64,000 nucleotides of DNA from Clostridia bacterium (GTDB lineage: Bacteria > Bacillota > Clostridia > Oscillospirales > Acutalibacteraceae), in assembly GCA_029098305.1 (NCBI GenBank), contig JAQXOB010000001.1, positions 1-64,000 on the forward strand, written 5' to 3'. How positions within the stretch are numbered: the stretch's first letter is position 1; each line of letters begins with the position of its first letter. Below the pieces are notes generated by a model, which worked only from the letters and a program-made list of their open reading frames with translations, did no database searches and was not told the DNA's origin. Both the position numbers and the translations under genes were made by a program. Below are positions 6,322 to 47,032 of the stretch, in pieces.

Positions 6322-6345
6322 AAAAAAATGCAAATCAATCTCAAA

Positions 6346-6420
6346 ACTCCCTACGTCGGCATTGTCCGAATCAGGTTAAAGGGTATAATCTCAGCCCATG
6401 TAAAAACGTGCACCCCTGCT
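6346..6420 (-). ncRNA. TPP riboswitch (THI element) aptamer
   Basis: Minus strand GGGGTGCAC...GGGCTGAGATTATACCC...AACCTGATTCGGACAATGCCGACGTAGGGAG. Confidence 0.95.
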
Positions 6421-6501
6421 TAAAAATGAATAATATTAAATTTTTTACTCTAACTATTGTAAACCATATTGAAGACGATTTCAAGTCTTTTTTGGCATAT
6501 T

Positions 6502-42766: not shown

Positions 42767-43459
42767 ATGTTTGAACTGATAAAAATGCTCGGTGAATTCT
42801 GGTTTTTTTTACTACACATAATGGGATCAGGCTCTTTTCCAAAACCACTTAAAGCAAAGGACGAAGAAAGATACCTCACACTGTGGAAGGAAAAGAAAGA
42901 TATCAACGCACGCAACATTCTGGTGGAGCATAATCTCAGGCTTGTGGCGCATATAATAAAAAAATACTATGCAGTTGTGAGTGATAGGGATGATCTTGTA
43001 TCTATCGGCACGATCGGACTCATAAAGGCAATCAACACATTTGATATGACAAAAAATATAAGACTATCAAGCTATTCATCTCGTTGCATAGAAAATGAAA
43101 TATTGATGTATTTTCGTACTCTTAAAAAGAACTCACAGGATATCTCTCTAAATGAAGCCATCGACACCGACAAAGACGGAAATCCTCTCACGCTAATGGA
43201 CATAATTTCATCTGACGAAAACATAGCAGAAATGCTTGAACTAAAGCTTAGTAGCGAAAAACTGCATACATACATTAACGATGTGCTTACACCTCGTGAA
43301 AAAACGATAATAATGCTCAGATATGGCCTAGCAGGCGATCAACCCCTTACCCAGCGTGAGGTGGCAGATATATTACACATATCAAGATCATACGTATCAA
43401 GAATAGAAAAGAAAGTTCTCGAAAAGCTCAAGAAAAAATTTAATAAACATGATTTTTAG
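42767..43459 (+). CDS. sigK: Sporulation sigma factor SigK (with pro-sequence)
   Basis: NILVEHNLRLVAHIIKKYY; SIGTIGLIKAINTF; SRSYVSRIEKKVLEKL; hydrophobic N-terminal pro-sequence. Confidence 0.92.
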   Translation: MFELIKMLGEFWFFLLHIMGSGSFPKPLKAKDEERYLTLWKEKKDINARNILVEHNLRLVAHIIKKYYAVVSDRDDLVSIGTIGLIKAINTFDMTKNIRLSSYSSRCIENEILMYFRTLKKNSQDISLNEAIDTDKDGNPLTLMDIISSDENIAEMLELKLSSEKLHTYINDVLTPREKTIIMLRYGLAGDQPLTQREVADILHISRSYVSRIEKKVLEKLKKKFNKHDF

Positions 43460-43536: not shown

Positions 43537-44403
43537 TTATTTATTTTTAAACTTATACACAGCATCAGCCAAGCGACAAAAGTCTTCCATCTCAAGCTGT
43601 TCTGCTCTGGCATTTAGCGGAATATCTACACTCTCAAGCAAATTCATAATTTCGCTTTTGCTAATGCCCAGCCCAGATGCCAGCGTGTTTGAGATTACCT
43701 TTCTTCTCTGCAAAAATGACGCCTTAACCACTGCGAAAAAGGTTTTTTCACAGATTGGTGATACTATTGGTTCTTTCCTGATATTAAGTCTGATGACTGC
43801 CGAATCCACCTTTGGCGCAGGCATAAAGCTATCTGCTTTCACCTCAAATAGCATCTCAGGCTCTGCATAGTATCTCACAGCTATCGTGAGTGCGCCACTA
43901 TCTCTTGTGCCTGCCGGTGCGCAGATTCTCTCTGCTGCCTCTTTTTGCACCATAACTGTCACGCAGTCCACCGGAAGCTTTTCTTCAAGCAATTTCATTA
44001 TCACAGGTGATGTAATATAATATGGCAGATTTGCACACACAGCCACATTCATTCCATCAAACTCATCTTCTATGAGCTTGTGAAGATCCATTTTCATTAC
44101 ATCGTCATTGATTACCTTCACGTTTTTTCTGTCGCTCATAGTTTCACCCAACACAGGTATCAAGCGCTTGTCAATTTCCACTGCGACAACCTTTTTAGCG
44201 GCCTTGCCAAGCTCATTTGTAAGCACACCAATGCCAGGTCCAACCTCTATTACGCCATAATTCTCATCAGGCACTCCATATTCTGCTATCTTTGGGCAAA
44301 CCTCCGGATCTATCAAAAAATTTTGTCCCAGCCCCTTAGAGAAAGTAAACCCATATCTACCCAAAATACCTTTTATCACTGTAATATCATATAGCTTATC
44401 CAT
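43537..44403 (-). CDS. rsmA: 16S rRNA dimethyladenosine transferase RsmA/KsgA
   Basis: GQNFLIDPEV; VIEVGPGIGVLTNEL; ANLPYYITSPVIMKLL. Confidence 0.95.
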   Translation of the reverse strand: MDKLYDITVIKGILGRYGFTFSKGLGQNFLIDPEVCPKIAEYGVPDENYGVIEVGPGIGVLTNELGKAAKKVVAVEIDKRLIPVLGETMSDRKNVKVINDDVMKMDLHKLIEDEFDGMNVAVCANLPYYITSPVIMKLLEEKLPVDCVTVMVQKEAAERICAPAGTRDSGALTIAVRYYAEPEMLFEVKADSFMPAPKVDSAVIRLNIRKEPIVSPICEKTFFAVVKASFLQRRKVISNTLASGLGISKSEIMNLLESVDIPLNARAEQLEMEDFCRLADAVYKFKNK

Positions 44404-45751
44404 TTAACAACCTCAATCCCTTTGGATATTTATTTTTCAGTCTTCCGTTTGAGCTTTTTCCAAATCCTATAGTGATGCCATCAACAGTAACGGCTGTGTA
44501 GCCCTTTATGTCTTCTTGTGATTTAAGATCGATTTCTTCGCCATGCAGATATTTTTTTAGTTCTTCACTGCCATATTTTAGCAAAACAAAATTAGAACAC
44601 TGCTTACTTGTGCTTGCCATAAAGGCACCATGAGATGGCTCAAAGCGATTACCTTTTATATCACCCAAATACACACCACACCTCAACACACCAAGCTTAG
44701 AAATATCAGGCGCATGATCGGGTATCATAAAAACATGGTTATTCACAACTGAGATTTTCTCACCAAAATGGCGATGAGGAAAAATCTCATCATATGCATT
44801 GTTAATGGTTTTTAAATCGCTTTTACTTAACTTTGCGGATGAATACTCTGCAATTATAGTGTCGTTTCCACTGCCCTTTTTGATCAACTTAGCGCAGAAG
44901 TGACCCTCACCGCCATCCATAGGAAAAATTCTCTCACAGCCCTGCAGATAGCTCCTTTTATCGGTCATATCAACCTCTGCCAGCTCAAAATCCGGATTTT
45001 CTGCTAAAAACTGTTTAATTACACCTTCATTTTCCTCATAAGAAAATGTGCAAGTGGAATACACAAGCTCGCCACCAACTCTCAAAGCATTTTTTGCAGT
45101 GTTGAGTATATGCAACTGACGTAAAGCACACGCCTGAACGTGCTCTCTGCTCCATTCTGATATGGAATCAGGATTTTTTCTAAACATTCCTTCACCGGAA
45201 CATGGCGCATCAACAAGAACTTTGTCAAAAAATCCACTTAACTTTTCGCAAAGCACCTGCGGATGACAATTAGACACGATAGCGTTTTTGATTCCCATTC
45301 GTTCTATATTTGAAAGCATAATATTAGCTCGTGATTTTACTATTTCGTTGCTCCATAGCAGTCCTTGCCCTTTAAGCTCACAACCAATCTGCGTGGATTT
45401 TCCACCGGGAGCAGCACACAAATCGAGAACCTTATCTCCGGGCTCAGGCGCAAGTAATGACACAGCAGACATCGCCGATGGTTCTTGCATATAAAACGCA
45501 CCGGCAAGATGCAGAGGATCATTACCTGATAATTCCACATCATTCGGAATATAATATCCATCCTTGGAAAATTTTGTTTTTTCAAAATTTATATTTAAAA
45601 TCATTCTTACCTGTGCTATATCTGATTTCAGAGTATTAATTCTGATTCCTCTATAAGAAGGCTTATCTATTGTTTTTTTAAATTTTTCAAGATCATCTGA
45701 TCCTATTATGTCATAAAGTTCATCAAAAAAATCGTCTGGATAGATAATCAT
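44396..45751 (-). CDS. RsmB/RsmF-like rRNA/tRNA m5C methyltransferase
   Basis: DLCAAPGGKSTQIG; DAPCSGEGMFRKNP; STCTFSYEENE. Confidence 0.93.
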   Translation of the reverse strand: MIIYPDDFFDELYDIIGSDDLEKFKKTIDKPSYRGIRINTLKSDIAQVRMILNINFEKTKFSKDGYYIPNDVELSGNDPLHLAGAFYMQEPSAMSAVSLLAPEPGDKVLDLCAAPGGKSTQIGCELKGQGLLWSNEIVKSRANIMLSNIERMGIKNAIVSNCHPQVLCEKLSGFFDKVLVDAPCSGEGMFRKNPDSISEWSREHVQACALRQLHILNTAKNALRVGGELVYSTCTFSYEENEGVIKQFLAENPDFELAEVDMTDKRSYLQGCERIFPMDGGEGHFCAKLIKKGSGNDTIIAEYSSAKLSKSDLKTINNAYDEIFPHRHFGEKISVVNNHVFMIPDHAPDISKLGVLRCGVYLGDIKGNRFEPSHGAFMASTSKQCSNFVLLKYGSEELKKYLHGEEIDLKSQEDIKGYTAVTVDGITIGFGKSSNGRLKNKYPKGLRLLNG

Positions 45752-45762
45752 ATGATTCTCCT

Positions 45763-45793
45763 TGTATAAAAAATAAAAGATTAGTCAATAATA
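45763..45793 (+). promoter_or_regulatory. SigmaG-like forespore promoter candidate
   Basis: GTATA (45764-45768; matches GHATR)-18 bp-AATAATA (45787-45793; 6/7 match to CATNHTA). Confidence 0.35.
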
Positions 45794-45817
45794 ATTGCGT
45801 GAGGAGGTGAAATCACA

Positions 45818-46048
45818 ATGAACAGCATTTTTAACAACAGCAGAGACAGCCAAAACAACAATCAGTCTAGAAACAATCAGTCTAGAAACAATCAGAACAA
45901 TAGCCAAAACAACAATCAATCAAGAAACAATCAAAACAACAATCAGAACAACAGCCAAAACAGATCAAATCAGAACAGCAAAAATAGTCAGAGCAAGAAC
46001 TCAAGAGAGAACGACTTTGATAACTACAACGATAGACAAAGCTTCTAA
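45818..46048 (+). CDS. N/Q/S-rich low-complexity 76-aa protein; possible spore or prion-like protein
   Basis: Perfect RBS ggaggtga; MNSIFNNSRDSQNNNQSRNNQ...; own terminator. Confidence 0.75.
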   Translation: MNSIFNNSRDSQNNNQSRNNQSRNNQNNSQNNNQSRNNQNNNQNNSQNRSNQNSKNSQSKNSRENDFDNYNDRQSF

Positions 46049-46100
46049 TAGGCTTTTACCAAGAAGAAATGCCATATAACTATATATGACATATTTTCTT

Positions 46101-46137
46101 AAAGAACGTCGCACTCTGAATTGCGACGTTCTTTTTC
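46101..46137. terminator. Rho-independent terminator
   Basis: aaagaacgtcgca...tgcgacgttcttttt. Confidence 0.85.
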
Positions 46138-46195: not shown

Positions 46196-47032
46196 TTAGT
46201 GTGATTTCACTTTTCCTATTATAGTGAATATAATAAACATCAAAAGATTAACAAGCACCACGCTTGCGCCGGCGGCTGTCGAGAAGAAATATGAGCATAC
46301 TATGCCTATCACAAAGCTCATAACAGCTACAATAGATGAGCATACTATCACTGAGAAAAATCTCTTGCATACTCTCATAGATGTAAGTGCAGGAAAGATA
46401 ATCAAGCTAGATATGAGCAACGTGCCCATAATTTTCATTCCTATTACAACCGTGAGAGCTGTAAGCACTGCTATCACAAGGTTATATCTATTTGCTCTTG
46501 TGCCGGTAGCTTTTGCAAAGGTTTCATCAAAAGTGACAGCAAAAATTCTGTTATAAAATAAAATATACATTCCTATGACAACGGCACCAAGGATAATGCA
46601 AAGTATCATATCTTTTTGCGACATCGCAAGTATGCTTCCAAAAAGGTAGCTCTCGATATCGGCATTTAATCCGGTTGAAACAGACGTTGCCACAATACCT
46701 ATAGCCATTGCACTGCTAGAGAGTATCGCTATAGCACTATCGCCTTTGATTTTGCTATTTTCACTAAGCTTAAGCAAAAAGAAAGCAGCCACAATAATTA
46801 TCGGCACAGCAAACTCCAGTGGTGCAGCAATATTGAGTGCCGATGCAATGGCTAGCGTGCCAAATCCTACATGAGATAAGCCGTCGCCAATCATAGAGTA
46901 TCTCTTAAGCACAAGACTAACTCCTAAAAGTGACGAGCAGAGTGCAATAAGCACTCCAACTATAAGCGCTCTCTGCATAAATGTATATGTAAGCATTTCA
47001 CCTATCATCTGAAAAAACATAAATAAATACAT
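46196..47032 (-). CDS. Metal ABC transporter permease (ZnuB/MntB family)
   Basis: GDGLSHVGFGTLAIA; GMKIMGTLLISSLIIFPALTSMRV. Confidence 0.9.
   Translation of the reverse strand: MYLFMFFQMIGEMLTYTFMQRALIVGVLIALCSSLLGVSLVLKRYSMIGDGLSHVGFGTLAIASALNIAAPLEFAVPIIIVAAFFLLKLSENSKIKGDSAIAILSSSAMAIGIVATSVSTGLNADIESYLFGSILAMSQKDMILCIILGAVVIGMYILFYNRIFAVTFDETFAKATGTRANRYNLVIAVLTALTVVIGMKIMGTLLISSLIIFPALTSMRVCKRFFSVIVCSSIVAVMSFVIGIVCSYFFSTAAGASVVLVNLLMFIIFTIIGKVKSH

Follow-up and report, generated by a model that had tools for sequence, protein, structure and literature searches.

Gamma-type SASPs, of which SspE of the Bacillaceae is the example, are proteins of <100 aa that are Q/N-rich, contain few hydrophobic residues, and are expressed from a sigmaG-type promoter. 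Their sequences are extremely variable, as Vyas et al. reportedly described in 2011. The alpha/beta-type SASPs (PF00269) are also small forespore proteins and form a conserved DNA-binding family. SspE presumably serves as a reserve of amino acids (PMC8452069), and the reported absence of gamma-type SASPs from Clostridia (PMC8452069; PMC3533761) raises the question of how clostridial spores store amino acids for outgrowth. Asn-rich low complexity is also found in GerG of Clostridioides difficile, a sigmaE-controlled spore protein of about 30% N with Met/Pro/Gly repeats that is found only in that species; its Asn-rich repeats drive gel formation in vitro and are dispensable for its role in germination (PMC5241399).

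The window analysed here is a 64,000-nt stretch of a Clostridia bacterium genome (1.64 Mb, 50 contigs), and it contains an N/Q-rich ORF that seems to encode a small clostridial spore protein missed so far, which may supply nutrients at germination. Its neighbors are an RsmF-type gene, which is divergent, and a metal ABC permease gene, which is convergent (Table 1). The initial annotation had described a protein made up almost entirely of Asn, Gln, Ser, and Arg, and these four residues do occupy 63 of its 76 positions (N 30, Q 12, S 14, R 7, followed by K 2, D 4, E 1, and F/Y 4). The strong ribosome-binding site and the dedicated terminator it reported were both present, and the region of the ORF held three terminator-like sites vs 0.3 expected. 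SigK, also named there, is encoded inside the window and scores above the PRK05803 cut-off. Elsewhere the genome has a SASP gene and a sigG-like gene; the latter reaches 406 bits, under the curated cut-off of the model, as is the case in all 150 family genomes searched. A TPP riboswitch (65 bits) was also found at positions 6331–6427 on the minus strand of the window.

Table 1 Positions of the small N/Q-rich gene, its expression signals, and neighboring genes in the window
Feature	Coordinates	Strand	Basis
76-aa N/Q/S/R-rich ORF, predicted disordered	45818..46048	+	ATG start, translation and AlphaFold2 single-sequence
Ribosome-binding site AGGAGGTG	45802..45809	+	Direct reading; 8 nt before ATG
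-35 element GTATA, sigmaG-type promoter	45764..45768	+	Direct reading; agrees with conserved block of orthologous loci
-10 element AATAATA	45787..45793	+	Conserved [A/C]ATA[A/C]TA at orthologous loci
Intrinsic terminator hairpin, 13 pairs, then T-rich tail TTCTATTT	46101..46134	+	
RsmF/NOL1-type rRNA methyltransferase, divergent; synteny anchor	44396..45751	-	Pfam PF01189, PF17125, PF13636, PF17126
Metal ABC transporter permease (ABC-3), convergent; context	46196..47032	-	Pfam PF00950
SigK sporulation sigma factor; context	42767..43459	+	NCBIfam PRK05803, 290 bits vs cut-off 252

With Asn and Gln at 42 of 76 positions, the protein exceeds the prion-like threshold of at least 30 N/Q per 80 residues. 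AlphaFold2 run on the single sequence returned a mean pLDDT of 53 and no secondary structure, a result that we took as a hint of disorder only. Direct reading of the protein found neither a signal peptide nor a hydrophobic stretch. Asn codons favored AAC over AAT (0.70 vs 0.40 in the genes of the window, p = 0.002), and this preference recurred in 42 of 48 related loci, a hint that the small N/Q-rich gene may be highly expressed.

Direct protein searches in 60 relatives recovered the window itself as the sole match, as expected from the low complexity of the sequence. We therefore replaced the protein search with a synteny search anchored on the rsmF-like neighbor. A small, extremely hydrophilic ORF, mostly N/Q/K/S-rich, was present in 98/152 rsmF-upstream regions from related genomes, so the gene is kept among relatives, one of the points on which the initial annotation had staked its reading. 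The total combines 81/105 regions from one locus set and 17/47 from another, in which the script gave 20 and three false picks (L147, L171, and L190) were removed by eye; the two sets overlap in a few species, some genomes having been reached both ways. Because these 98 ORFs were picked partly by composition, we also note that 77/78 ORFs chosen by promoter score alone were hydrophilic, defined as at least 60% N/Q/S/K/R/D/T/C/E. A strong RBS preceded the ORF in almost all orthologous loci, and among small ORFs with a strong RBS, 56/60 upstream of rsmF were hydrophilic, compared with 12/216 in other parts of these loci (p = 1.7e-41, an optimistic value given that the loci are kin).

Species carrying such an ORF include Ruminococcus bromii, a spore-former (PMC5814915), and Pseudoruminococcus massiliensis. 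The R. bromii ATCC 27255 locus encodes MNFNQNRNNNQNKNEQNSQNKNQNSNQNKNQQNSQNKSQNNCR at the corresponding place, and the small R. bromii protein contains MNFNQNRNNNQNK and would give few usable tryptic peptides. P. massiliensis belongs to the family of the window genome, and one locus and one genome (L071 and G108) encode an identical small protein. Orthologs from the same genus as the window (58 and 62 aa) were rich in N/T/S/K/G and nearly devoid of Gln, so N/Q-richness is a tendency, and the constants are hydrophilicity, size, and promoter. The gene was absent at the rsmF-upstream position in 54/152 regions, mostly the more distant ones. It is not bound to rsmF, since in two genomes it adjoins genes that by eye resemble ksgA (G144) and that for ribosomal protein S20 (G114). 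One genome, G136, was the only one with a well-conserved rsmF and no detectable sigG, and in this single case the ORF was also absent from that position and a SASP match was kept. In another clostridial family, two loci (L262 and L263) had N/K-rich ORFs of 28–33 aa, e.g., MGNSQYNKNKNDKSNTDKNKNNNNKDKGNNKVK, behind the same promoter and RBS; these possibly encode the same kind of protein.

The sequence itself was barely kept, with a mean column identity of 25% over 31 members. The 98 proteins ranged from 30 to 83 aa, had an N+Q content of 50%, and had a net charge of -4 to +6 (median +4); Trp was absent in 97, and a Cys occurred near the C terminus in 36. Six close ortholog pairs differed at 11, 22, and 50 sites at codon positions 1, 2, and 3, respectively, and serine was encoded by both AGY and TCN codons in the window ORF, as in 69/98 members. 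Use of both serine codon families indicates that the protein is conserved rather than a DNA repeat, and together with the third-position bias it argues that the protein is under selection. From its codon pattern and from the place and promoter kept across many species, we conclude that the ORF is a real gene, beyond chance. Selection probably acts not on the sequence but on the size, composition, and extreme hydrophilicity of the protein and on its promoter.

Upstream of the ORF in the window, GTATA and AATAATA are separated by an 18-nt spacer and depart from the sigmaG consensus quoted in the initial annotation by one mismatch, the first base of the -10 being A where the consensus has C. Training a two-box model on 88 non-redundant regions yielded tG[T/A]ATA[A/T], 15–16 nt, n[A/C]ATA[A/C]TA. 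In leave-one-out scoring, 81% of sites reached at least 11 bits vs 1.2% of dinucleotide shuffles, and in a further comparison site density was 0.83 vs 0.032 per kb. Conservation of the -35 core at orthologous loci was 0.91 for G, 0.96 for A, 0.92 for T, and 0.89 for A. The -35 box was kept even in several species, including R. bromii, where the gap to rsmF is ~40 nt and the box must therefore overlap the beginning of the rsmF gene. A conserved G on the upstream side of the -10 marks the sigmaF promoters of C. difficile, and its sigmaG promoters instead have a conserved A on the downstream side (PMC3789822). At our orthologous loci the downstream A was conserved at 0.92 and the upstream G was absent, which favors sigmaG. 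We rejected sigmaF as the main reading on the missing upstream G, with the qualification that sigmaF and sigmaG are hard to separate and that the motif also precedes SpoIIQ-like M23 and gpr genes; sigmaA was rejected because no sigma-70-type site was found upstream of the ORF. The motif fits sigmaG in both boxes, and the sigmaG-like promoter originally proposed is now strongly supported by the phylogenetic footprint, the genes that the motif precedes, and the presence of a sigG-like gene in the window genome. Promoters of the alpha/beta SASP genes in these genomes agree with the motif in spacing and -10 box but have a weaker -35 that lacks the G, scoring a mean of 8.5 vs 13.9 bits; the SASP promoter of the window genome scores only 4.9 bits and does not match. 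Most SASP leaders also have a conserved (T/G)GCAAACGC directly after the -10 box and ahead of the RBS (SASP loci L112–L141 and L194–L204).

The bare motif was hardly enriched in the window genome (16 occurrences vs 11 in a reversed control). Nine of its sites there precede a gene with a nearby RBS, including SpoVAC/SpoVAEB, rubrerythrin, and Mn-catalase; in C. difficile, spoVA, rbr, and cotG (Mn-catalase) are sigmaG genes (PMC3789822). Requiring both motif and RBS gave 25 sites vs 8 in the control across 150 family genomes, comprising 15 N/Q-rich or similar small hydrophilic ORFs, four SpoIIQ-like M23 peptidases, one GPR germination protease, and a few others. Extended to 293 genomes of the class, the search gave 94 sites vs 6 in the control, and the loci read included SASP, SspH, DUF421, DUF1540, and UPF0180 genes. 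This gene content identifies the motif as a forespore promoter. An FAD-dependent DAO oxidoreductase gene also lies behind the same forespore-type promoter in the window genome (L212, C20:60168), with a similar protein in genome G087 (L222).

A forespore promoter implies synthesis inside the forespore, and we regard the 76-aa product as most likely a disordered small spore protein expressed there. We propose that sigmaG would activate the gene within the forespore at a late stage of sporulation, and that the small, intrinsically disordered product, with its abundance of N, Q, S, K, and R, would be packed into the spore core as an unusually amide-nitrogen-rich amino acid reserve. This reserve would work like the gamma-type SASP SspE and be broken down at germination, feeding early outgrowth. 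We infer forespore expression by sigmaG from the promoter and the core location and storage role by analogy, and we give the combined reading, a sigmaG-driven gene for an SspE-like reserve in the core, an even chance of being correct. Counting against it are the missing GPR site, the lower-scoring alpha/beta SASP promoters, the slight excess of the bare motif over its control in the window genome, the Gln-poor orthologs of the same genus, and the 54 regions that lack the gene.

The initial annotation had suggested a gamma-SASP analog, which stands as the best-supported function and fails as family membership. Small size, Q/N-richness with hardly any hydrophobic residues, a sigmaG-type promoter, and extreme sequence variability are common to both groups, but the new set has no detected homology to SspE and occurs in taxa reported to be SspE-free, and the GPR site (E-F/I/L-A-S/N-E; E[FIL]A[SN]E) was absent from all 98 proteins. 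Among 31 diverse members, there were no Pfam matches at E 0.1, including none to PF00269, and NCBIfam gave just one weak, unrelated match; the weak DUF3408 match was rejected as compositional. We propose, slightly more tentatively and at a little under even chance, that Clostridia of the R. bromii group have an independently arisen gamma-SASP counterpart. It would consist of fast-evolving, alignment-invisible, N/Q-rich disordered sigmaG core proteins, serving as a nitrogen reserve and/or core-filling gel and missed through low-complexity filters. Abundant gut spore-formers, among them the culturable R. bromii, share a family that is conserved in place, promoter, and composition, which makes the storage question directly testable; low-complexity filtering hides real genes, and the footprint supplies a usable sigmaG motif for this bacterial group.

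The promoter evidence applies in the same way to a forespore-made disordered protectant, in which the product would fill the dehydrated core, forming a gel or condensate or shielding RNA, DNA, or proteins, and would not be primarily a food reserve. The N/Q content, low pLDDT, and positive median charge given above agree with such a role, composition and predicted disorder would allow prion or condensate behavior, and the Asn-rich repeats of GerG do form gels in vitro (PMC5241399). However, sequence, length, and charge vary widely across the set and the GerG repeats are dispensable for its germination role, and we regard a protectant as the main alternative, less likely than the storage reading. 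A coat, cortex, or germination-signaling protein is less probable still. The Asn-rich GerG is a germination protein, two sigmaG products of C. difficile, CotG and SodA, occur at the surface of its spores (PMC3789822), and the C-terminal Cys of some members could cross-link. Yet gerG and the majority of coat genes are under mother-cell control (sigmaE/sigmaK), which makes a surface role less likely for a protein with a forespore-type promoter and no signal peptide or hydrophobic stretch. For the same reason the coat option of the initial annotation appears improbable, and its germination option fits poorly with the sigmaE control of gerG: the window promoter is not of that mother-cell type, and GerG repeats of the GMPNNMSNNMNSNM type were absent from the window protein by direct reading.

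A vegetative or fortuitous low-complexity ORF, its motif an AT-rich chance match, would suit an AT-rich genome and a protein search without relatives. It is already contradicted by the promoter footprint, and place, promoter, RBS, and composition kept across many species, along with the third-position bias, make it a very remote prospect. The SASP of the window genome (L192 / G000:C5:10035-10181) leaves the family just after GGQMV (NNICPVRLMNFERNYRWVNGHE); genome G002 has a similar post-GGQMV variant beside a normal copy, and matches in G010, G019, G169, G171, and G073 stop at this point as well. An apparently split alpha/beta SASP gene occurs in G022, its N-part and C-part lying on one strand, 23 kb apart (L277 466-2342 = G022:C26:154466-156342; G022:C26:177498-177584). 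The C-part is adjoined by an ORF that by eye resembles a large serine recombinase, possibly marking an ssp gene interrupted by a skin-like element.
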